Positions 16,614 to 61,749 of a DNA stretch of 64,000 nt are shown piece by piece. Position numbers and translations under genes: made by a program. The number at the start of each line of letters is the position of its first letter. The first letter of the stretch is position 1. This DNA comes from a virus, in IMG/VR virus record IMGVR_UViG_3300036886_000363, positions 1-64,000 of that record. The stretch is one strand, 5' to 3'. A model generated the notes under the pieces. The model saw only the letters and a list, made by a program, of their open reading frames with translations, did not search any database and was not told the origin of the DNA.

Positions 16614-18890
16614 TTATTGTTCTTCTGAAAATCTCGGAATTCTTTTTTTAAAAGCTAACTTTTGCATATTTTTAATGGATTGTTTATAATAGCTTTTTTT
16701 TAATTCCATTCCTATTGCATACCTATCCATTTCTACTGCACAATATGTAACCGTTCCTATCCCATTAAATGGGTCAAGAACGATATCTCCTTTTGTACTC
16801 CATAATTCTAAACACCGCTCCACAGTATCTAATTGGAGAGGGCAAACATGCTTCTCATCTTTCTCATCACGAGATAAATCTGAATTTAGAACTCTTGTTT
16901 GCCGAATATCAAACCACACAGGAGAAGCATATCTCTGCCATATTTCATGAGATAATTTATTCTTTTTTTGATTATCACTATATATTCCTGTCGGAGCATC
17001 GCTTTCTCCCACAAATTCTGAAAATCCGTTCTCTCTTGATATAGGAATAAGATTCTCCCCCGGCTTTCTCATCACAATAATATAATCTGGCAATCCTTGA
17101 CCGCAGCGAGATGAATCCTTAATTACTTGTTTGTGGGCGAGGGCCAATGCTTTTGTCCTGACTGCTTGTATAAGAGGATCTTTCCAGATACAAACTTCAG
17201 AATGAAATATAAATTTTTCTTGTTGAAACATCCAAATTAAATCTCCTCTGAAATCATGCAGCCCCATATATCCATCATGTGTGATTGTTGCCGGTAGATT
17301 CATGCAATGAACTGCAATGAGTCGACCAGGACACATTACCCTATATAATTCCTTAATTAAAAATCTAAAATGGTCAAGAAAAGTATTTATATCTTTACAA
17401 TTTCCCATGTCTCTTATTGAATTCGTATATGTGAATAGAGAGGCGAATGGGGGAGAAAACATAGAAAATCCGACATAGTTATCGGGCAAGGTTTTAATTA
17501 TTTCTATATTGTCTCCTAAATATAGTTCATATTTATTTGCTTCTTCATAATTGTCAATCTCGTAAATCTCTTCCAAATGAGATTGCTCTTTTAATTCTTG
17601 TTTGCTTATGTCTTTCATATTGGAAATCATCTCCCTTCTCATTTTTATTGCATCAGCTTCTTTTCTTTTTATATTATCTGCTACATTTCCTTCAACATCT
17701 GTTGTTATTATATAACAGTTTACTGGATTTTTCTGTCCAAATCTCCAACATCTTCGTATTGCCTGATAAAAAGCCTCATAGCTATCTGACAATCCACAAA
17801 AGATAATATTATGGCAATGTTGCCAATTCAATCCAAAGCCTGCAATTTTTGGCTTTGTAACAAGTATTTTTATTTCTTCATTTGAAAATTTGATCATATT
17901 ATTTTCTTTTATTTCATCTTTTTGCGATCCTGTTACTTCAACCGCTCCTTTTATTTCTCTTGATACTTCTTCACTTTCTTTATTTAAATCACACCAGATT
18001 AACCATGATTTATCAGATCCTAAAATTAAATCATTAATAATTTTTATCTTTTCACTTATTGATTCCCGTCTTGCATTTCTTCTTTCTCCCAATGTTTCTG
18101 CCTTTTGTATAGAAAAATGTCCTGGTTTGGGGGTTCCAAATGGAATAACTCTTTCTATTATATTTAAAGGTGGCAAAATAAATTTGTTGTCATCAAATCC
18201 TAATTCTGAAGGAAAAGAAAACATGATCGCCCATGAGCAAACCCACTCCCAAAATTTTTCTTGTCCATGTTTTTTTAATCTCCATGTTCCAACATTTGAT
18301 GTATCATTTATAAAAAATAATGATAGCATTTCTGGCCTTGATAAGACATTAAGGAATTCTGAATGATTGCCCAGTTCAATAAAATCATTGGGAGAAGGAG
18401 TTGCAGTACAACATAATTTATATGGTGTTCTTTGAAAAGAATCAATAATGTAATTTCTAAATTTTCCTGTATAAGATTTTAAAATTGAGGATTCATCCAG
18501 AACTATCCCTGCAAAAGAATCAGCATGAAATTTATGAAGTTTTTCATAGTTTGTGATATTGATCCCATTGACAATATCATTCTGTGATTCACAGATATTA
18601 ATGGGGATTTTGAATTTATCTCCTTCTCTTTTTGTCTGTTTAGAAACTGCTAAAGGGGCAAGAATTAAAACTGGTTTGTTGGTATATTTGCATACTTGTC
18701 TTGACCATTCAATTTGTATAGGAGTTTTGCCAAGTCCACAATCGGCAAAAACAGCAGCTCTTCCTTTTTTAATTGCCCATTTTACAATGGCTTCTTGAAA
18801 ATCATAAAGCATAGGGTTTACATTTTCAGGAAGAAATCCGGTCTGTCTATTTATAATATCCTTCTTTTTTAAAAAATCTTGATATCTCAT
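16614..18890 (-). CDS. SNF2-like helicase fused to a DNA methyltransferase
   Basis: 758 residues. Residues about 25-430 are an SF2/SNF2-type ATPase: AAVFADCGLGKTPIQIEW (motif I, 48-62), GIVLDESSILKSY (motif II, DESS 132-135), CCTATPSPNDF (III) and YEAFYQAIRRCWRFGQKNPV (VI). Residues about 455-750 are a beta-class amino-methyltransferase: ELYLGDNIEIIKTLP, FSMFSPPFASLF (catalytic SPPF, 479-482) and VLDPFNGIGTVTYCAV (SAM motif, 706-713). SPPF favours N4-cytosine but does not exclude N6-adenine. Base composition is more AT-rich than the neighbours, suggesting recent acquisition. Likely protects phage DNA from restriction. Confidence 0.88.
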   Translation of the reverse strand: MRYQDFLKKKDIINRQTGFLPENVNPMLYDFQEAIVKWAIKKGRAAVFADCGLGKTPIQIEWSRQVCKYTNKPVLILAPLAVSKQTKREGDKFKIPINICESQNDIVNGINITNYEKLHKFHADSFAGIVLDESSILKSYTGKFRNYIIDSFQRTPYKLCCTATPSPNDFIELGNHSEFLNVLSRPEMLSLFFINDTSNVGTWRLKKHGQEKFWEWVCSWAIMFSFPSELGFDDNKFILPPLNIIERVIPFGTPKPGHFSIQKAETLGERRNARRESISEKIKIINDLILGSDKSWLIWCDLNKESEEVSREIKGAVEVTGSQKDEIKENNMIKFSNEEIKILVTKPKIAGFGLNWQHCHNIIFCGLSDSYEAFYQAIRRCWRFGQKNPVNCYIITTDVEGNVADNIKRKEADAIKMRREMISNMKDISKQELKEQSHLEEIYEIDNYEEANKYELYLGDNIEIIKTLPDNYVGFSMFSPPFASLFTYTNSIRDMGNCKDINTFLDHFRFLIKELYRVMCPGRLIAVHCMNLPATITHDGYMGLHDFRGDLIWMFQQEKFIFHSEVCIWKDPLIQAVRTKALALAHKQVIKDSSRCGQGLPDYIIVMRKPGENLIPISRENGFSEFVGESDAPTGIYSDNQKKNKLSHEIWQRYASPVWFDIRQTRVLNSDLSRDEKDEKHVCPLQLDTVERCLELWSTKGDIVLDPFNGIGTVTYCAVEMDRYAIGMELKKSYYKQSIKNMQKLAFKKRIPRFSEEQ

Positions 18891-18891
18891 A

Positions 18892-21800
18892 TTACTTTAC
18901 ATCTCCCAATAGTTTGATCTTGTCTGAAAAGTTTTTAATTCCTGCTTCGAAATCTTTTCTATTATTGGGATTGTGAAGAACTGCTGCAGGATGGATGCAC
19001 CAACAAATCCAGCAGCCGACCTTCTCGTTCCATTCTGTTTTGCCGCTTATTGATATTATACCCCCGTCTCGATCTGTTAATGCTTTTATTGCAGTGTTGC
19101 CAAATGCGAGTATCAGACAGGGATTGACAATCTTGATTTCTTGTTCAAGCCATTTCCAGCATGCTTTGATCTGAGTTTTATTCGGAGTTCGGCTTTTTGC
19201 AGGAAAACATTTTGCAATATTTGTAACATGAAAATCTTCCCGATATAATTCATACTTGAGAAGCTCTGGCCATAATATGTCTTTCCCTGCCCTGCCAATG
19301 AATCCATCTCCTTCTCTGTCTTCATCTGGCCCGGGAGCTTCTCCCAACGCCATGAGGTTATATTTTCCGGGAGAGGGAAGGACAGGGCCGAACTCACATT
19401 CTTTGCCGAGTTCGCAGGAACAACAATCTATTAAACCCCAGTCTACAGGGAAGAAGAATGTTTTCTCCTCTATATAATTCAGATGAGAAGCAGGGATATC
19501 CAGAGCCAGTAGTTTGTCTATATCGGGAAACATGAGATCAAGATTTCCCCTGAGCAATTTTGGATACATGAGTTTCTTATCAGTGAATACTCTGAAGGAA
19601 AAATACTTCCCGACATCTTTTGCAGGCTCATCCCCGAAGGCGCCGATCTCCGTTAACATTTTTTCCAGCTTGCTCATATTCTCTGTTCCCGTCCGGACAT
19701 TAAAGAAGCCCTGTAGTTGGTTATTGCTCCTTTTTCTTGCAGTCATACATTCAACAGCTGTCACTTCTCCAATTCCCTTGATCTCTTTGAAAGGGATATA
19801 AAGAGTATGATTTTTGGCAATCCATTTATCAGCATCGGAAACACCGACCTTTGGCAGGACAATCTTTAGTCCCAGACGATAAGCCTCTTCGATCAGCTCT
19901 ATTTTTTTTCTTGCATCTGAAGATCCATATGTCAAATTTGCACAAATAAATTCTGTCGGGTAATGATATTTAATAAAAGCAGTCCAATATCCGATCATTG
20001 CATATTCAACAGAGTGAGACCTGTTGAAAGAATAGTTGGCATGCTTTTGTAATGCAGTCCAGAATTCTTCTGCCTCTCGATCCGAGAAGGTCTTCAATTT
20101 TCGACAGCCTTCTATAAACGAATCTTTGAAGGGTTTGAACTCTTTTGCATCTCGTTTCTTGCCTATGATCTTGCGGATCTTATCGGCCGTTGCATAGGAT
20201 AGGCCGGCAACCTTATGAATGACTTCCATGATCTGCTCTTGATATGTTATGATTCCGTAGGTGTTTGCAGTGATCTCTTCATATATGGGATGTTTCTTTT
20301 CCCACCTCTCCCCTCTTTTTCTCTTGATGAAATCATCTGTCATGTGGGAATCAAATGGCCCGGGCCGGACAAGTGCAATGATATCTCCCAGAAGACTAAA
20401 ATTATCTGCTCCAATATCTTTTGCAAGTTTTGATGTCGCCCATGCACTAAATTGAAAGACACCAACATTGTTGCCCGCAGATATCTGAGCAAGGACATTT
20501 TTATCATCGAGGGGGATCTTCTCAAAAATGATATCTATACCATGATTCTGTTTGATAAGGTGTTTTGCCTCACTCAATATTGATAATGTATTCAGTCCGA
20601 GGATATCCAGTTTCATCAGCCCGACATATTCGGAGTCTTCCATATCCCAATTTGAAACAACATTTCCTGATCTCATAACGAGAGTGCATCGGGTTCCCTG
20701 AGTCAGATCATCCGCAGAGACAACAACAGCTGCGGCGTGCTGACCTGTTCCCATAACCTGCCTTTCCAGTTTGATTGCATGCTTGATGACATCTGGATAC
20801 TTGCGGGCAAATGCCTTGCCTTCCTCTGTATCTCTTATCGCTGATTCAATGATATCTTCATCTGGAGTTGTCTGGGCTGCGTTGTCTATAACTTTTGCAA
20901 ATCCGTCAACTTCTTTATTCTCGATGTCAAAGACCCGTGCGACATTTCTAATCGCTGCCCGGCCTTTCATTGTCAGGAAGGTGGATAGAGACGACACATT
21001 TTTTCTGCCATATAATTCTTCAAGGTGATCTCTGATTAAATGTCTCTTGCGATCTTCAAAATCCAGATCGATATCCGGAAGATCAATTCGTTCATCTGAT
21101 ATGAAGCGAGAAAACAAAAGGTTGAATTTAATCGGGTCGACGGTAGTGATTCCCAGCAGATAAGCAATCAGTGATCCGCCTACACTACCGCGACCCGGGC
21201 CAACCATGATATCATTCTTTCTGCACCACTCTGTTAATTCCCAGACAATCATGAAATACGGTGCGAACTTTTTGTCATGAATAATTTGCCATTCTTCAAT
21301 CAGTCGATCTTGATATTCCCTTTTTCCTTCTGGGAAAATCTCAAAGAGTTTTTCCCTACAAATATCCATGAGGAATTCTTCCGGATCAGCATTTTTATAT
21401 GCCGGAACCTTTGGCAAATAGATGTCTTGTTTCTTGATTGAGAATCCTTTGCATTTTTCTGCTATCTCTATTGTTGACTCAAGAGATTCTTGAATATCGT
21501 AATCGCTGAGGATTTCTTGTTGCCTGAAAGCATCGATCATTTCCTTTTCTGATCTCAGATGTAATCCATTGATTTCAAATTTATATCGATTTGTATCTGT
21601 CCATTTCGCCTTTGTCTGTATGGCAAGCAGTACTTCATGAGTCTGATCGTCATCGGCATTTATATAATGACAATCATTTGTAGCCACCAAACGGATATTC
21701 CAATTGTCTGCCGTCGAGACACAGAAAAGATTTGTCTGTTTTTGCCCGGCGAAATTGTGAGGCATTACTTCAAGGTAAAGATCATCTCGAAGCTTCTTAT

Positions 21801-22257
21801 TTAGATCACGGAGAAGATCGATTCCTCCCGGGAGATTGACAAAGGAGCTGTGACAGCCGGTCATGATAACCATCCCCTCACAAAATTCATAAAGCAGATC
21901 GAAGTCAATCCGGGGACGATGATAGAATCCTTCAAGATTGGCAATGGTCAGCATCTTGCACAGATTCTGGAATCCCTGCTCATTCTTTACAAGCAGGGTT
22001 ACATGCCCTCTGACCTCTTTTTCTTTGATTTCCAGCTTCTCGACGATATAGGCTTCGCATCCGAGGATTGGAATGATGTTTTGCTTTTTACAAGCTTTTT
22101 GGAATTTGATAAGACCGTCAATATTTCCATGATTTGTTAGTCCAAGATATCTCTGGTCAAGTTCTTTGGCTCTCTTGACATATCCTTCAGCCGTTCCAAA
22201 TCCATCAAGCAAACTGTATTCATCATGCACATGCAGATGACAAAAGTTATCGCTCAT
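18892..22257 (-). CDS. dnaE: DNA polymerase III alpha (DnaE-like) fused to a family-4-type uracil-DNA glycosylase
   Basis: 1121 residues. PHP domain at the start (HLHVHDEYSLLDG; VATNDCHYINADDDQTHEVL), then the C-family polymerase core: GPGRGSVGGSLIAYLLG (353-369), LPDIDLDFEDRKR (catalytic Asp395/397), MGTGQHAAAVVVS and KHANYSFNRSHSVEYAMIGY. The normal C-terminal tau-binding region appears replaced, from about 939, by a uracil-DNA glycosylase: LGEAPGPDEDREGDGFIGRAG, HVTNIAKCFPAKSRTP and CIHPAAVLHN. Its cysteines (945, 948, 1017, 1033) match the 4Fe-4S spacing of family 4. It probably couples synthesis to removal or sensing of uracil. Intact start to stop. Confidence 0.92.
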   Translation of the reverse strand: MSDNFCHLHVHDEYSLLDGFGTAEGYVKRAKELDQRYLGLTNHGNIDGLIKFQKACKKQNIIPILGCEAYIVEKLEIKEKEVRGHVTLLVKNEQGFQNLCKMLTIANLEGFYHRPRIDFDLLYEFCEGMVIMTGCHSSFVNLPGGIDLLRDLNKKLRDDLYLEVMPHNFAGQKQTNLFCVSTADNWNIRLVATNDCHYINADDDQTHEVLLAIQTKAKWTDTNRYKFEINGLHLRSEKEMIDAFRQQEILSDYDIQESLESTIEIAEKCKGFSIKKQDIYLPKVPAYKNADPEEFLMDICREKLFEIFPEGKREYQDRLIEEWQIIHDKKFAPYFMIVWELTEWCRKNDIMVGPGRGSVGGSLIAYLLGITTVDPIKFNLLFSRFISDERIDLPDIDLDFEDRKRHLIRDHLEELYGRKNVSSLSTFLTMKGRAAIRNVARVFDIENKEVDGFAKVIDNAAQTTPDEDIIESAIRDTEEGKAFARKYPDVIKHAIKLERQVMGTGQHAAAVVVSADDLTQGTRCTLVMRSGNVVSNWDMEDSEYVGLMKLDILGLNTLSILSEAKHLIKQNHGIDIIFEKIPLDDKNVLAQISAGNNVGVFQFSAWATSKLAKDIGADNFSLLGDIIALVRPGPFDSHMTDDFIKRKRGERWEKKHPIYEEITANTYGIITYQEQIMEVIHKVAGLSYATADKIRKIIGKKRDAKEFKPFKDSFIEGCRKLKTFSDREAEEFWTALQKHANYSFNRSHSVEYAMIGYWTAFIKYHYPTEFICANLTYGSSDARKKIELIEEAYRLGLKIVLPKVGVSDADKWIAKNHTLYIPFKEIKGIGEVTAVECMTARKRSNNQLQGFFNVRTGTENMSKLEKMLTEIGAFGDEPAKDVGKYFSFRVFTDKKLMYPKLLRGNLDLMFPDIDKLLALDIPASHLNYIEEKTFFFPVDWGLIDCCSCELGKECEFGPVLPSPGKYNLMALGEAPGPDEDREGDGFIGRAGKDILWPELLKYELYREDFHVTNIAKCFPAKSRTPNKTQIKACWKWLEQEIKIVNPCLILAFGNTAIKALTDRDGGIISISGKTEWNEKVGCWICWCIHPAAVLHNPNNRKDFEAGIKNFSDKIKLLGDVK

Positions 22258-55423: not shown

Positions 55424-55635
55424 TGCAAGAGAGCTGGACTCCCCGTCGGGCAAAATCGACCTCTTGTATTTGTCCTCGTTGTATGGTCAAACATAGGATG
55501 AAATTGTTTTGGACGGGTGAATTGCCAGCTCGCAAGTTTTGCAATAGTTGTAATCAGATCGCGGAGAGAGATTATACTCCAGATTCTCTTTCAATCAGCC
55601 CAGATATACTGGAGGTTATGAATGCTTCTTTATGA
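55423..55635 (+). CDS. Zinc-ribbon protein, 70 aa
   Basis: MQESWTPRRAKSTSCICPRC, KHRMKLFWTGELPARKFCNS, CNQIAERDY: a CxC..C / CNSC zinc ribbon with W-T-G between the knuckles, a common small phage design. Overlaps the metallopeptidase start by 14 nt. Confidence 0.72.
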   Translation: MQESWTPRRAKSTSCICPRCMVKHRMKLFWTGELPARKFCNSCNQIAERDYTPDSLSISPDILEVMNASL

Positions 55636-56662
55636 TTTCTTGAAAGGTCTTCCCGGAAGCAGATATTTGAAAACCAGAGATGCTGGTTTCAAGGAGGAAG
55701 AGCATCCTCGTGGACAGCCGAATAATCCCGGGCAATTTGTTGAAGGGGGAGGATCGAGTTCATCCGGATCCGAGGAGTCTGAATCAAAGAAGGAAGAATC
55801 ACAGTCACAGGAGAAGAGTAACGAAGAGAAACTGAAAGAGGCGAGAAAGGCTCACAAGGAAGCGCGGGAGAAAAATGATTTTGATGAAATGGTAAAACAT
55901 CGAAAGACCATAAATGAACTCGAAAAAGTATTGGCTCCTCCTCCTACAGAGATCGGCAAGACGACATGGGAAGAACAGGCAAAGAGACAGGTCGCGAATA
56001 GATATATCAAGGCCAACTTCAATATTAATAGTGTCTCTGGATCAATCGAGCAGGTCAATGCAACTGGCAGTCATTTATCGAAGCTTTGTAATCAATTCCC
56101 GGAAGTGCATTTCCAGTTAAAGAAACATCGTATGAGTTTTATTAAGTATCAGGGAGAGAATGAAGTTCTTAAATCGAGATATGGACATGAAATGGGAAGA
56201 AGATCTCGGGGAGTTTATGAGGACAAAACGGGAGATGGTGCAATGCCTGCAATTACAATGAAGGCTTTGAAAAGAAGAGATGCACTTAAATTTGATACAG
56301 ATGCTGGCAAGGTTGGATATGTTTTTGGCTCGGAGAATAATGGGCACAGCGATGGAGATGTTTTGAATCATGAATTAGGCCACCACATGATGTTTTGCAT
56401 AGGTAAAAAAGCCCGAAGAGAATGGTATGATGTTTGTGAAAAAATGGGAGGGTCTATTGCTCTGGAAAAGACAGTTTCAAAGTATGCTGGAACAATAATA
56501 AAAGCAACTCCAATGGGAGTTGATAGAAATCCGGAAGATTGGTATCAGGAAGGATTTGCAGAGAGTTTCGCAAAATTTACAAATCCTAATTATAAGAAAG
56601 GCAATCTGCCTCAATCAATTGAAAATTATATGACCAAGTATTTTAAAAAGGACAAATCATGA
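55622..56662 (+). CDS. Zinc metallopeptidase with virion-type N-terminal motif
   Basis: 346 residues. N-terminus MLLYDFLKGLPGSRYLKTRD is nearly identical to that of the pyrophosphatase-fold protein downstream. Residues 23-39 carry EEEHPRGQPNNPGQF, also in the portal. A Ser/Glu-rich coiled part follows to about 105, then the protease: VLNHELGHHMMFCI (HELGH 250-254) and DWYQEGFAESFAKFT (third ligand Glu310 or Glu314). Possibly an internal virion or injected protease; that is inference. Confidence 0.8.
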   Translation: MLLYDFLKGLPGSRYLKTRDAGFKEEEHPRGQPNNPGQFVEGGGSSSSGSEESESKKEESQSQEKSNEEKLKEARKAHKEAREKNDFDEMVKHRKTINELEKVLAPPPTEIGKTTWEEQAKRQVANRYIKANFNINSVSGSIEQVNATGSHLSKLCNQFPEVHFQLKKHRMSFIKYQGENEVLKSRYGHEMGRRSRGVYEDKTGDGAMPAITMKALKRRDALKFDTDAGKVGYVFGSENNGHSDGDVLNHELGHHMMFCIGKKARREWYDVCEKMGGSIALEKTVSKYAGTIIKATPMGVDRNPEDWYQEGFAESFAKFTNPNYKKGNLPQSIENYMTKYFKKDKS

Positions 56663-56862: not shown

Positions 56863-57432
56863 ATGCTTCTCTATGATTTCCTAAAAGGATTGAAGGGCAG
56901 CAAGTATCTCAAGACAAGAGATGCGATGTCGATTCCCTTCACTCCCGAGCATTTTAGTGAAGAGTGGAAAGCAGATCAGAAGAAGGTTTTGAAAGAGACT
57001 TATCCAGATTTGAGTGAGGATGACTCCCTTCACGAGATCAACTTTCAAGGACTGACGATCTCGATAGAGAATCCGGAGGGATCAACCCGGGAAGGCACGA
57101 AGCCTGACGGCTCTCCATGGCAGACAAAATTCTTTCATCCATATGGCTTTATAAAACATACATTAGGAGTTGATGGGGATGAGGTTGATTGTTTCATCGG
57201 CCCGAATCCGACATCACAGAATGTTTATATCATCCATCAGAGGATTAATGGAAAGTATGATGAAGATAAGGTCATGCTGGGCTTCGATGATGAGGAGCAT
57301 GCAAGAGATGCCTATTTGGCGCACTATGACACCCAGCAGAGGTTAGGCCCTATTACATTCATGCCGTTCAGCCAATTCAAGGAAGTTCTTGAAGAGAAGG
57401 GCAAAGCAGGAATCAAACTAAAAGAGGATTAA
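56863..57432 (+). CDS. Phage inorganic-pyrophosphatase-fold (InPase) protein
   Basis: 189 residues. N-terminus MLLYDFLKGLKGSKYLKTRD repeats that of the metallopeptidase. Core: KFFHPYGFIKHTLGVDGDEV, DCFIGPNPTSQNVYIIHQRI, KYDEDKVMLGFDDEEHARDA, LGPITFMPFSQFKEVLEEKG. This domain is a frequent module of phage polyvalent proteins; here it stands alone. Substrate not proven; likely hydrolyses phosphoanhydride or glycan-linked phosphates. Confidence 0.82.
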   Translation: MLLYDFLKGLKGSKYLKTRDAMSIPFTPEHFSEEWKADQKKVLKETYPDLSEDDSLHEINFQGLTISIENPEGSTREGTKPDGSPWQTKFFHPYGFIKHTLGVDGDEVDCFIGPNPTSQNVYIIHQRINGKYDEDKVMLGFDDEEHARDAYLAHYDTQQRLGPITFMPFSQFKEVLEEKGKAGIKLKED

Positions 57433-57435
57433 TCA

Positions 57436-60207
57436 ATGTCAAAAAAGAAGACAAAAGATTCAACGCCGGATTTCAAGAGAGATTTTGTTGAACCAATAAG
57501 AAGAGCAGCAGACAATATCGGAGGAGTATTGCCTCCACAACTTGTCTCTTCAGCTCTCCCTCTCTTGCAGCCTTATCCTGTAATTACTCAACCTCCGGTC
57601 TGGAGAAAAAGATATGGTGTAGATGATTCTGTCCCCAAAGATGCGACATTGAAACAATCATCGATGGCAACAGACAGCTTCGCAAATTTTACTGCTCGTC
57701 TGGGGATCCAGGCCAGCAATATATCTTCTACGGCAGGATATGCACTCGGACCTTTCATCACGAGAAACAGAATCGCTCTTGAAGCAGCTTATCGTGATAG
57801 TTGGGTTGTCGGGAAGGCGATTGATTGCATCGCCGAAGACATGACTCAAGCTGGGATTTCGATGCATTCCAAATTGAAACCAGCGGAGATCAAAGATATG
57901 CAAGTTGCTATCAGCGAATTCAAGATATGGCATGATCTGGGAATGGCGATCAAGTGGGCAAGACTTTATGGAGGTTGTCTTGCTGTCATGATGATAGACG
58001 GACATAATTATGAAGCTCCTCTCGACATTACAAGAGTCGGGAAAGATAAATTCAAGGGGCTTGTTGTCCTTGATAGATGGATGGTTCAACCCAGTATGGG
58101 AGAGTTAATAACCGATCTGGGAACGGATATTGGCATGCCGAAATTCTATCAGGCGATGCCGGGGGTCTCTACTTTCCCATCAAAGAAGATCCACCATACA
58201 CGCTGTCTCCGATTTGACGGGATCGAGCTTCCTTATTATCAGAAATTGTTTGAAAATCTCTGGGGATTGTCTGTCGTCGAAAGATGCCTCGATCGTCTTC
58301 TGGCCTTCGATTCTGCAACTCAGGGTGCTGCCCAGTTGTTGTATAAATCTCATCTCCGGGTTATCAGGGTGAAGGATTTTCGTCTTGCCCTTGCTGCAGG
58401 TGGCAATCAGGAAGAGGCCATGATGAAGATGTTCATGTATATCCGGTCAATGCAGACAAATGAAGGATTGACAGTCCTTGATGCTGAAGACGAATTTGCG
58501 ACTCATTCATATACCTTTGCAGGTGTGTCGGATGCCCTCCAGCAGTTCGGCCAGCAGATCGCCGGTTCTATTGATACTCCTCTCGTCAGGTTATTTGGAC
58601 AGAGTCCTGCCGGATTCAGTACGGGAGATACCGACATAAGAAACTATTATGACGGGATTAAGAAGAGACAGGAGAACGATCTCCGTCCCCGGCTTGATCC
58701 ATTGCTTGCAGTCATAGCGATGTCGAGGTTAGGCCATGCCCTCCCCGATGACTTTGAATTCAAGTTTATCCCATTATGGCAAATGTCTGAGAATGAAAAA
58801 TCAGAGATTGCAGGCAAGGTTGTTGATACGGTTGTCAAGGCAAAGGATGCCGGGTTAATCCCTCTGCATACCGCGATGAAAGAGTTGCAGGAATCTTCCC
58901 GGATAACTGGAGTATTTACAAATATAACCGATGAGGATATTGAAGAAGCCGAGAATAATCCTCCTGAAGCTCCGATGCCGGGAGCACCCGGTGCTGAGGG
59001 CGGGCCAGAAGGAGGAGAGAAGAAGCCAGATGAAACAAAAGGAGCCGAAAAGCCAAATGAGAGACTCGGAGCTGCGGATCCCGATGTTGAAAAGGAGAAG
59101 ATTCCTGAAAAAGAAACTCAAGATGTCGGGAGATCATCTGTTAGAGATATTTTTAATATTTGGAGAGAGAAGAGAAGGAAGATATTAAATTCTCTTGATA
59201 CGATTTTTAAAGAGGAAGAACATCCCAGAGGATCAGGGGAGAAAGGCGGGCAGTTTGTCAGCAAGGGGGAAGGTGGAACATCGGGAAAGAAGGAAGGAGA
59301 AGGTAAAGAATCTAAAGCGGGAACACAGACAGTCAAGCGCACTAAGTCTACCCAGTCTTTTGAAGAGACGAAACGGGATAAAGAAGGCAAGGTCGTATTG
59401 TCATCGGGCAAGCCTCTTCCAAAGCATATGGTTAATACCTATATAGCACCGGCGTGGGAAAATGTCCTTATTAATCCCGATCCCAAAGGAGACTTGTGGG
59501 CTGTTGGTCATAACAAGGAAGGTAAAATTGTTGGCTGGGTCTATAGTGATGAGCATAATAGTGGGAAGGACATTGCTAAGGATAGTATGTACCAAGAGCT
59601 GAGAAAGCAATATACGTCTATCGTTCAACAGCTCAATAACGATTATAAGGATAAGGATAAAAAGGAGTCAGCTTTCGTTACAAAGATAATAGCTAACACT
59701 GGTGCAAGGATAGGCAGTCAGAAAGAAGCTATCGGCATAAAGGGGATAAAAACTTACGGCGCATCGACGCTAGAAGCGAGACATATAGTTGCTGAGAAAG
59801 ACGGTACGGTTAAATTAGATTTTATTGGTAAAGACGCCAAGCGTAATATCTACACTGTTACAGATAAGAAGGTTGCCGATGAGTTGAAGAGTTTGGTAGC
59901 AGGTAAGAAGCCTGCGGATAATTTATTTGCTGCCAATTATAATATGTGTCTTAATTATGTCAAGTCTCTTGATGGTGGAGGATTTACTCCTAAGAGTTTT
60001 AGGCTTAAGATAGCGACGGACTTAGCATTGCAAACAATGAAGACAATGGGAGCGCCAACAGATCCAAAAGATTATAAGAAGAAGGTTTTGGCGGTTGCCA
60101 AAACAGTAGCCGAACAATTAAATAATACTCCAGCAATAGCTTTGAAGCAGTATATAGTCGCAAGTATATGGACTGACTGGAAGACTAAAGCCGGAGTCGG
60201 GGTATAA
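57436..60207 (+). CDS. Portal protein (DUF1073 type) fused to a type IB DNA topoisomerase
   Basis: 923 residues. 1 to about 500 is a DUF1073 portal: SWVVGKAIDCIAEDMTQAGI, WARLYGGCLAVMMIDGHNYE, ENLWGLSVVERCLDRLLAFD, TPLVRLFGQSPAGFSTGDTD. A Pro/Glu linker and FKEEEHPRGSGEKGGQFVSK follow. 655-915 is a complete bacterial-type TopIB: YIAPAWENVLINPDPKGDLW (N-domain), TGARIGSQ (Arg758), DFIGKDAKR (Lys799), TPKSFRLKIATD (Arg856), NNTPAIALKQYI (Asn896, Tyr906). The TopIB could relax or nick DNA at the packaging or ejection channel. Confidence 0.88.
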   Translation: MSKKKTKDSTPDFKRDFVEPIRRAADNIGGVLPPQLVSSALPLLQPYPVITQPPVWRKRYGVDDSVPKDATLKQSSMATDSFANFTARLGIQASNISSTAGYALGPFITRNRIALEAAYRDSWVVGKAIDCIAEDMTQAGISMHSKLKPAEIKDMQVAISEFKIWHDLGMAIKWARLYGGCLAVMMIDGHNYEAPLDITRVGKDKFKGLVVLDRWMVQPSMGELITDLGTDIGMPKFYQAMPGVSTFPSKKIHHTRCLRFDGIELPYYQKLFENLWGLSVVERCLDRLLAFDSATQGAAQLLYKSHLRVIRVKDFRLALAAGGNQEEAMMKMFMYIRSMQTNEGLTVLDAEDEFATHSYTFAGVSDALQQFGQQIAGSIDTPLVRLFGQSPAGFSTGDTDIRNYYDGIKKRQENDLRPRLDPLLAVIAMSRLGHALPDDFEFKFIPLWQMSENEKSEIAGKVVDTVVKAKDAGLIPLHTAMKELQESSRITGVFTNITDEDIEEAENNPPEAPMPGAPGAEGGPEGGEKKPDETKGAEKPNERLGAADPDVEKEKIPEKETQDVGRSSVRDIFNIWREKRRKILNSLDTIFKEEEHPRGSGEKGGQFVSKGEGGTSGKKEGEGKESKAGTQTVKRTKSTQSFEETKRDKEGKVVLSSGKPLPKHMVNTYIAPAWENVLINPDPKGDLWAVGHNKEGKIVGWVYSDEHNSGKDIAKDSMYQELRKQYTSIVQQLNNDYKDKDKKESAFVTKIIANTGARIGSQKEAIGIKGIKTYGASTLEARHIVAEKDGTVKLDFIGKDAKRNIYTVTDKKVADELKSLVAGKKPADNLFAANYNMCLNYVKSLDGGGFTPKSFRLKIATDLALQTMKTMGAPTDPKDYKKKVLAVAKTVAEQLNNTPAIALKQYIVASIWTDWKTKAGVGV

Positions 60208-60375: not shown

Positions 60376-60545
60376 TGTACACCCTCCCATACAGAACGAC
60401 AGAAGCTCCCAAAGATGAGAAGGCCTATAAAAAAGCGGTTCTCAAGGTTGCAAAAGAGGTCGCAGCCAAACTCGGCAATACTCCTGCAGTTGCTCTGAAG
60501 GCCTATATTAGTCCTGTAGTTTTTGCGCAATGGAGGACAAAGTAA
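60375..60545 (+). pseudogene. Orphan C-terminal segment of a type IB topoisomerase, 56 aa
   Basis: MYTLPYRTTEAPKDEKAYKK, then VAKEVAAKLGNTPAVALKAY and ISPVVFAQWRTK. It aligns by eye with the end of the portal-topoisomerase fusion (PTDPKDYKKKVLAVAKTVAE and NNTPAIALKQYI), including the tyrosine nucleophile, but has none of the other catalytic residues. It may be a leftover after replacement of the fusion 3' end, or a small trans-acting peptide. Stop and the next start form TAATG. Confidence 0.7.
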
Positions 60546-60997
60546 TGTTGCTCACCGATATGAGGATAAGGAAGGGAAGATTCATACAAAAAGATGCTGA
60601 AGAGGTTTACAAAGGAATCGGCTCTTTATTGGGAGAAGCAGGTCATGTTGAATCTGGATTAATCGAATTATTCGCCGATAACAAAAAAGTGAAAGATAGC
60701 GAGATTCATAAAATGGCTGAACAACTGGGTTGGGAGGCTGATAAATTGGAAGAGATGGTTTATTCCCTCCTTCAGTCATTCCTTTCTCAGGGCAAGTTTA
60801 TGAAGGAGGGGCAGGGCAAACAATTCGATGATAAAGAAGTTGAGATGGGAAAGAAAGTCGAGCTTGAACATACAAACAATCCCATTCTCTCATTGAGAAT
60901 AACATTGGATCATTTAACAGAGATACCAGACTACTATACTCGATTGGCGCAGATGGAGAAAGAAGGGAAGGCGGCAATGAAGGGAGGACAAGAATAA
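60545..60997 (+). CDS. DUF5661-like protein, 150 aa
   Basis: TAATG start at 60545 with GGAGGACA upstream: MLLTDMRIRKGRFIQKDAEE. The C-terminal half MGKKVELEHTNNPILSLRIT then LDHLTEIPDYYTRLAQMEKE is the DUF5661 signature found beside phage head genes. Function unknown; it is coupled to the MuF gene. Confidence 0.8.
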   Translation: MLLTDMRIRKGRFIQKDAEEVYKGIGSLLGEAGHVESGLIELFADNKKVKDSEIHKMAEQLGWEADKLEEMVYSLLQSFLSQGKFMKEGQGKQFDDKEVEMGKKVELEHTNNPILSLRITLDHLTEIPDYYTRLAQMEKEGKAAMKGGQE

Positions 60998-61749
60998 TGG
61001 CAGACCTGATTCAAGACTTACCGGAAGCTCCTTTTCAAAAGTCAAAGGCGATCCAGGAGGAGTATGCCCGTGCTCTGAGAGGGGTATCCAGACAAGTTGG
61101 AAATTTAATTAAAGGTTACAACCCGACCGATCCTCTTTCAGCAGAGAGGTTAAGGAAAGCGCTGAGAGCTTATTCAGAACTTATTGGGCCATGGGCAGAG
61201 ACAATCAGCAAAAGGATCCTTGTGGCTGTCAACAATCAAGATTACAATGCTTGGAGGCAGCATAGCCGGGAAATGTCCCTCAAGATGAGGCAAGAGATAT
61301 TGTCGTCAAATGTGGGCGAGACCTTTCAAAGACTCATGAGGGAGAATGTCGAACTCATCAAATCGATACCTTTGAAGGCTGCAGAGAGAGTCCATGAATT
61401 GGTCACAGAGAATCTTATGCAGAGCGCCCGGGCAGATGAGATATCACAGAAGATAATGGAGTCCGAGAAGGTATCCAAAGTGGTCGCAACCCGGATTGCC
61501 CGGACAGAGATTGCAAGAGCATCGAGTACTTTGCTTCAATCAAGGGCTTTGTCTATTGGGAGTACGGGCTACATTTGGAAGACCTCTAAAGATTTGTTAG
61601 TTAGGAAATCACACAAGATAATGGAAGGCAAATTTATTAAGTGGAATGATCCGCCAAAACTAAGTGATGGTACGATAACCCATGCCGGGCAAATTTACAA
61701 TTGCAGATGCTGGCCGGATGTTCAAATTCCTGAAGGAAATTATTCATGA
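60997..61749 (+). CDS. MuF-type head morphogenesis protein
   Basis: 250 residues. A helical N-domain (YARALRGVSRQVGNLIKGYN) precedes the MuF core: RIARTEIARASSTLLQSRAL, GYIWKTSKDLLVRKSHKIME and AGQIYNCRCWPDVQIPEG (the CRC-P end). These proteins assemble with the portal inside the capsid. The final residues overlap the GIY-YIG start. Confidence 0.9.
   Translation: MADLIQDLPEAPFQKSKAIQEEYARALRGVSRQVGNLIKGYNPTDPLSAERLRKALRAYSELIGPWAETISKRILVAVNNQDYNAWRQHSREMSLKMRQEILSSNVGETFQRLMRENVELIKSIPLKAAERVHELVTENLMQSARADEISQKIMESEKVSKVVATRIARTEIARASSTLLQSRALSIGSTGYIWKTSKDLLVRKSHKIMEGKFIKWNDPPKLSDGTITHAGQIYNCRCWPDVQIPEGNYS

Follow-up and report, generated by a model that had tools for sequence, protein, structure and literature searches.

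A type IB topoisomerase fused to a phage portal protein and its recurrence on head proteins of uncultivated phages

Introduction

Enzymes fused to head-vertex proteins of phages have been described as packaged effectors and polyvalent proteins (Iyer 2017, PMC5512222; PMC9503650), and the gene considered here invites comparison with them. It lies at positions 57436-60207 (+ strand) of the first 64,000 nucleotides of IMG/VR virus record IMGVR_UViG_3300036886_000363 (the window, that is, the whole stretch that was analysed) and joins a portal protein to a predicted type IB topoisomerase (TopIB) in one reading frame. The portal fusions described in the two papers carry inorganic pyrophosphatase (InPase), PBECR or 2H domains (PMC5512222) or a NUDIX domain (PMC9503650). 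As in the window, the enzyme is located at the C-terminus of a head-vertex protein encoded within a head gene cluster, and the same companions are encountered, namely InPase, MuF, ADP-ribosyltransferase (ART) and NUDIX (PMC5512222; PMC9503650). The virion location of portal and MuF fusions has been placed by inference in these sources and in PMC6316719. In SPP1, the portal brings the MuF protein gp7 into the procapsid interior, and delivery at infection has been proposed for toxins fused to gp7-like proteins (PMC6316719).

The gp19 portals of Pseudomonas phages E217 and Pa193 (PDB 8fvh and 9b41), like the portal in the window, are of the DUF1073 type and possess a long tail past the barrel. 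The C-terminal barrel of the E217 portal projects into the head (PMC10329688), and residues 529-765 of the Pa193 portal gave no density (PMC11042391). Residues 632-732 of the latter (PDB 9b41) were recognized here as an InPase (phmmer with the window InPase, 9b41_L, E=1e-23); the word 'pyrophosphatase' is absent from the main text of the Pa193 paper (PMC11042391). The cargo of the Pa193 tail is therefore InPase, whereas that of the window portal is TopIB, and the E217 and Pa193 tails are unresolved in the structures.

Described TopIBs resemble the window domain in other respects. The poxvirus enzyme (vaccinia H6R) is a listed virion enzyme (PMC1540416), and the model of the window domain matches the fold of its variola counterpart, but H6R is free-standing, belongs to an unrelated eukaryotic virus and is not fused to a portal. 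Deinococcus TopIB (PDB 2f4q/3m4a) shares the fold, the N-domain and a catalytic set with Asn, yet it is free-standing and cellular. A phage-specific TopIB has been reported in some jumbo phages (PMC7824862). Rhizobium phage RHEph12 also encodes a TopIB, which, unlike that of the window, is not portal-fused and lies near PAAR and tail-fibre genes; within the stretch checked around it, no gene was found for the acidic LGFDP protein that accompanies phage TopIBs (see below).

The class of portal-fused effectors is known. The open-access papers and databases searched describe neither a TopIB cargo of this class, nor its repeated occurrence on portals of four families, nor its acidic partner. No portal-TopIB fusion was found in the open-access literature, in agreement with the sequence-only reading of the window (an earlier annotation based on its letters and open reading frames), which knew of none. 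In the passages and by the terms searched, PMC5512222 names a topoisomerase in a reference title only, and TopIB does not figure among the fusion domains it describes. It is the TopIB cargo that distinguishes the fusion from the described members of the effector class; the acidic partner and a sequence tag containing HPR come from the present analysis, and no literature search aimed at either was made.

The fused frame and its topoisomerase domain

The gene is a single open frame of 923 codons (923 amino acids, aa), uninterrupted from ATG to stop, with GAGG upstream of the ATG. It comprises the following parts:

57436..58950, + strand: portal part, residues ~1-505 (Phage_portal_3/DUF1073; PF06381 at 114-466)
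58951..59412, + strand: low-complexity linker rich in E, G, K and P, residues ~506-659 (from composition)
59206..59256, + strand: tag FKEEEHPRGSGEKGGQF, residues 591-607, with the motif [FW]xE..HPRx2-10GxF
59413..60207, + strand: type IB topoisomerase, residues 660-923 and stop codon (PF01028, AlphaFold, PDB matches 3m4a/2f4q/2h7f)
59707..59709, + strand: codon of catalytic Arg758 (invariant, 82/82)
59830..59832, + strand: codon of catalytic Lys799 (invariant, 82/82)
60001..60003, + strand: codon of catalytic Arg856 (invariant, 82/82)
60124..60126, + strand: codon of catalytic Asn897, where TopIBs have His or Asn (82 sequences: N in 80, H in 2)
60151..60153, + strand: codon of the nucleophile Tyr906 (invariant, 82/82)

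The TopIB domain is matched by Topoisom_I (PF01028) at residues 710-902 (E=4e-20; 72.5 bits against a curated cut-off of 23.7), the Pfam N-domain model Top1B_N_bact scores 18.9 bits, under its cut-off of 27, and in a phmmer alignment residues 668-912 pair with 45-295 of the Deinococcus enzyme. An AlphaFold model of residues 660-923, computed from 46 aligned phage and bacterial sequences, reached a mean predicted local distance difference test (pLDDT) score of 94.6 and a predicted template modelling (pTM) score of 0.87; the N-terminal strands are present, and by this model the domain is complete for both the N-domain and the catalytic core. All 22 PDB matches of the model at E<=0.001 are type IB topoisomerases, including the Deinococcus, human, variola/vaccinia and Leishmania enzymes. 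The recombinases Cre and XerH are far weaker matches, and on this ranking a tyrosine recombinase identity was rejected.

The catalytic set consists of R758, K799, R856, N897 and Y906. Four of these residues are invariant throughout the 82 aligned sequences, the fifth column admitting either N or H, and on this basis the window TopIB is an apparently intact, putatively active enzyme. The TopIB domains are mostly basic, with a median net charge of +12. Neither a gyrase or topoisomerase IV A subunit nor an integrase match was found in the contig, which is possibly incomplete.

The portal part is matched by Phage_portal_3 (PF06381) at E=3e-105 and 352 bits in Pfam and by the phrog_146 portal at E=3e-134 in PHROG. 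With phmmer it retrieves 8hds (E=9e-34), 9b41 (E=9e-15) and also 8fvh, aligning as the counterpart of the solved Pam3, E217 and Pa193 portals, and by homology to these it would form a dodecameric ring at the head vertex. The linker is, to judge from its composition, flexible. No ribosome site of convincing quality was seen within the frame ahead of the TopIB part, so that the enzyme is probably produced solely in fusion with the portal, and the production of a free enzyme from an internal start was rejected. The gene recurs with 0 differences over 2,772 bases in a near-identical IMG/VR contig, L001, which is 99.99% identical to the window over 12.6 kb. The peptide PDFKRDF[VE]EPI is found at the portal N-terminus (57436-57500) and again, in another contig, in a protein whose gene follows that of the major capsid protein (L021:7565-8281, contig 71565-72281), possibly as an interaction motif or a sign of shared origin.

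These results uphold the sequence-only reading as regards the uninterrupted 923-codon frame, the N-terminal DUF1073 portal and a TopIB with N-domain and catalytic domain, and the structure prediction it had proposed as a check returned the expected fold. Its list of catalytic residues stands for Arg758, Lys799, Arg856 and Tyr906, but the Asn it had placed at 896 is N897, as the 82-sequence alignment indicates; at 896, all 81 sequences other than the window's have G.

Recurrence, exchange and loss

The fusion is not a single case. A portal-driven scan yielded one independent fusion, in L011, whose TopIB is ~35% identical to that of the window, and TopIB-driven scans yielded, from contigs of uncultivated phages, at least 80 TopIB rows counting that of the window. 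As most seeds for this set were fusions, the proportions within it do not reflect frequencies in the population, and it contains duplicates (for example, the identical fusion in three contigs, L052 = L053 = L091). Sorted by portal and MuF profiles, with Pfam and PHROG checks on representatives, the 80 rows comprise 28 portal fusions, 7 MuF fusions, 25 cases in which a separate or otherwise fused TopIB gene lies close to genes for a portal or MuF protein; 4 more are fragments, and for the remaining 16 neither was found.

The carriers are diverse. TopIB is attached to DUF1073 portals, the group in which the sequence-only reading had proposed to look for the fusion, at 25 loci, and to portals of three further families, namely lambda-type PF05136 (L057), Mu-type PF06074 (L097) and the HK97-like phrog_2662 portal (L023/L029), besides MuF proteins (7 loci) and DUF2213 (L102). 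TopIB is absent from most of the DUF1073 portals sampled; in the hits of the portal-driven scan, what follows the portal is nothing, InPase (L005, L014), a P-loop-like sequence (L015/L017) or TopIB. Other enzymes may share the chain with TopIB, including InPase (portal-InPase-TopIB in L031, portal-TopIB-InPase in L072), NUDIX (L096), GATase (L081) and ART (L084; weakly L034). L011 and L023 have portals of different families but TopIBs with 65% identity: the domain moves as a module. A TopIB tree, built by a quick method and with many weak forks, implies at least four changes of DUF1073-fusion state by well-supported branches alone and 13 by parsimony; it separates five free-standing bacterial TopIBs from the phage group (support 100) and cannot place the TopIBs of the window or RHEph12. 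An apparent intein, with intein-like profile hits, is present in the L023/L029 portal-TopIB protein, and another lies inside the L104 MuF-TopIB protein (Pfam Intein_splicing).

Among 50,697 named phage records, no portal-TopIB fusion was found, and 0 of the 1,475 matching records cover 80% of the query. With TopIB as the query, the named phages gave matches in five Rhizobium phages and one Bacteroides phage, besides a single uncultured record that lacks annotation, and in no others; coverage stayed below 80% in all of them. Two scans of prophage and cellular genome contigs returned no fusion, the second yielding five free-standing bacterial TopIBs only; both used short peptide patterns, by which prophage fusions may be missed. 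The recurrence on dozens of uncultivated phages and four kinds of portal suggests that a topoisomerase is part of the virion in many phages, and points to repeated selection for such an enzyme in the head.

TopIB is nevertheless accessory. In two portal lineages it has been deleted in frame with the portal open reading frame (ORF) intact. The L124 portal stops at HPRADDG and runs straight into the acidic tail DNDEELKETPASVIALLGFDP; compared with L060, TopIB is missing between two copies of GACGATGG, and the deletion is in frame. In L127-L129, TopIB is cut after ~20 residues and fused in frame to the acidic tail. Portal frames therefore persist without TopIB. The window itself holds a further remnant:

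60393..60542, + strand: fossil of a second TopIB C-terminus, ~50 aa, ending in ...LGNTPAVALKAYISPVVFAQWRTK (tblastn E=2e-14 to the window TopIB)

The fossil is 75% identical to L065 over 44 aa and 56% identical to the window's own TopIB. As it is nearer to the TopIBs of other phages, it indicates either replacement or the loss of a second copy at this site.

The acidic neighbour and the HPR tag

Immediately downstream of the fusion lies a small gene whose family follows phage TopIBs:

60217..60375, + strand: acidic 52-aa protein, net charge -12, ending in ...DWRKYSNDTDDDVDEPASAMLIKMLGFNPDEDEEE (LGFDP family downstream of phage TopIBs)

The family (~50 residues; consensus LPDxHFG....DWR...DDDEEL..TP.DVV.MLGFDP) was seen at the window, L011, L026-L112 and L115-L179. 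By a strict test, its gene follows TopIB in 73 of the 80 loci, several of the misses being without downstream sequence, and 59 of the 73 genes lie within ~210 bases of the TopIB stop. It was found at none of 15 DUF1073 portal loci lacking TopIB and at none of five bacterial TopIB loci. Fisher's test for 73/80 against 0/15 gives p=1.5e-12, a generous value given that the loci are related. A reciprocal scan with the acidic protein alone found TopIB sequence in 66 of the 68 contigs retrieved; three of these 66 contain a deleted TopIB remnant only, and in most others TopIB is directly upstream, often less than 50 bases away or overlapping. In L072, L085, L092/L093 and L102 the LGFDP stretch is on the TopIB chain itself, and the L102 protein (L102:6582-10706), 1375 aa long, combines TopIB with DUF2213 and this acidic stretch and bears three HPR tags. 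An AlphaFold model of the natural fusion in L092, based on a shallow alignment, shows the acidic part as largely disordered, with pLDDT <50 at residues 265-299 and a weak C-terminal helix; the family has no Pfam match, and its PHROG scores are insignificant. The tight pairing offers the hypothesis that the acidic protein is a partner or restraint of the enzyme, and a function as an inhibitor of TopIB is only hypothesized.

The HPR motif, followed by Gly-rich sequence, occurs in its strict form in 44 of the 80 phage TopIB proteins, usually 25-65 residues ahead of TopIB. Outside these proteins it recurs in 20 further ORFs at these loci, among them ORF 55622-56662 of the window, where it is N-terminal; shuffled proteins contain none. 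The motif marks domain boundaries, a role in sorting or cleavage being a guess, and it may label cargo in phage heads more widely.

Location in the head and possible function

The window TopIB starts well past the equivalent of the E217/Pa193 barrel. Because the E217 barrel points into the head and TopIB begins beyond its equivalent, homology would place the enzyme in the lumen of the head, held by a flexible tether. The sequence-only reading had put the topoisomerases at the DNA entrance; by homology to E217 and Pa193, their copies would instead be found where the channel opens into the head, not at the terminase-side entrance (PMC10329688).

We consider it fairly probable that TopIB travels in the head as a cargo held at the portal vertex, and that its target is the phage DNA coming in as infection begins. 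The enzyme would reside in the head of the virion, tethered by the C-terminal tails of the portal ring, and would be one of several exchangeable cargo enzymes of head-vertex proteins (portal, MuF), with its acidic partner encoded alongside. Most likely it would enter the cell with the phage DNA, or await that DNA at the channel, and would relax it in the first minutes of infection, ahead of phage gene expression. TopIB requires neither ATP nor metal. The predicted fold, the intact catalytic set, the fusion to unrelated head proteins, the loss from intact portals and the gene pair, all shown here, support this reading. To judge from its enzyme domain on a head-vertex protein, its head gene cluster and its varied carriers and effector companions, the fusion appears to belong to the packaged effectors; the exchange between head proteins, the stand-alone copies, the companions and the deletions fit that class of virion-packaged, head-fused enzymes. 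That the protein is present in virions, is active, is cut in the region of the HPR tag, is ejected and has phage DNA as its substrate is inferred only. Several points weigh on the other side. The tail without density in E217 and Pa193 may be cleaved and lost, a folded TopIB would probably have to unfold in order to get through the ~40 A tail tube, the many fusions on portals may reflect a portal-specific role, and the window TopIB is a long branch whose own history is unclear.

A two-gene module at the portal vertex, in which TopIB on the portal or MuF protein inside the head is bound or restrained by its cognate acidic LGFDP protein and controls topology during packaging, ejection or first transcription, is a tentative proposal, possible but open to considerable doubt; no description of such a virion function was found for tailed phages in the open-access literature. 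The torsion relief during packaging suggested by the sequence-only reading is conceivable but not favoured. An enzyme on the inner rim of the portal that nicks and swivels DNA during packing or ejection, releasing twist from the motor or from crowding without ever leaving the head, would be in keeping with the recurrence on four portal families, with the reach of the linker, with the conserved catalytic set and with the tail position in solved relatives, where DNA enters the head (PMC10329688). It is nonetheless unlikely, as most sampled DUF1073 portals lack TopIB, its loss from two lineages left the portal ORF whole, and TopIB also occurs off the portal (MuF, DUF2213, stand-alone) and on chains with unrelated enzymes. 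DNA under packaging moreover has a free end, through which torsion may dissipate without an enzyme.

Action on DNA upon entry, the other suggestion of that reading, fits better, host DNA being only one option for the target. An injected TopIB that relaxes or covalently damages the host chromosome, thereby altering transcription or aiding takeover, could explain the chains shared with ART-type domains and an acidic neighbour that restrains an enzyme harmful during phage assembly; there is, however, no sign of target choice, the InPase and NUDIX partners are not obviously toxic and TopIB by itself is a mild activity, which makes this quite unlikely. Use of the fold merely as a basic DNA-binding tail, with catalysis irrelevant, would account for the mostly basic domains, but seems very improbable given that R, K, R and Y are invariant in 82/82 very divergent sequences, with N or H as the fifth residue. 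Misassembly of two genes, which the sequence-only reading had regarded as fatal to its interpretation, was rejected and can practically be dismissed in view of the identical gene in L001, the identical fusion in L052, L053 and L091 and dozens of independent, divergent fusions. The earlier interpretation is thus partly supported, and whether a phage-borne topology enzyme is brought into the cell or is needed at the portal becomes a directly testable question.

Other genes of the window

The head gene cluster around the fusion encodes InPase, MuF, DUF2213, the major capsid protein and terminase, and includes the following genes:

55622..56662, + strand: putative cargo ORF with leader MLLYDFLKGLPGSRYLKTRDA, HPR tag and HExxH motif (HELGHH) (from sequence)
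56863..57432, + strand: Polyvalent-type InPase, separate gene (PF18823 E=4e-42)
60997..61749, + strand: MuF-type minor head protein (PF04233 E=1e-14; phrog_324 E=9e-61)

The InPase gene lies 3 bases upstream of the portal-TopIB gene. The putative cargo ORF has no significant Pfam family, and in L001 (L001:4188-5063) one gap relative to the window shortens it to 291 aa. An N-terminal leader of the type MLLYDFLKGL.GS.YLKTRDA is common to the head-cluster genes at 55622, 56863 and 62427; it ends in KTRDA in two of them and in FARDA in one, and resembles a capsid-targeting peptide.

Two further composite genes lie on the opposite strand: a frame encoding a DNA polymerase III alpha homolog that carries a uracil-DNA glycosylase domain at its C-terminus (18892-22257, -) and an SNF2-type helicase joined to an N6/N4 DNA methylase in a single frame (16614-18890, -).
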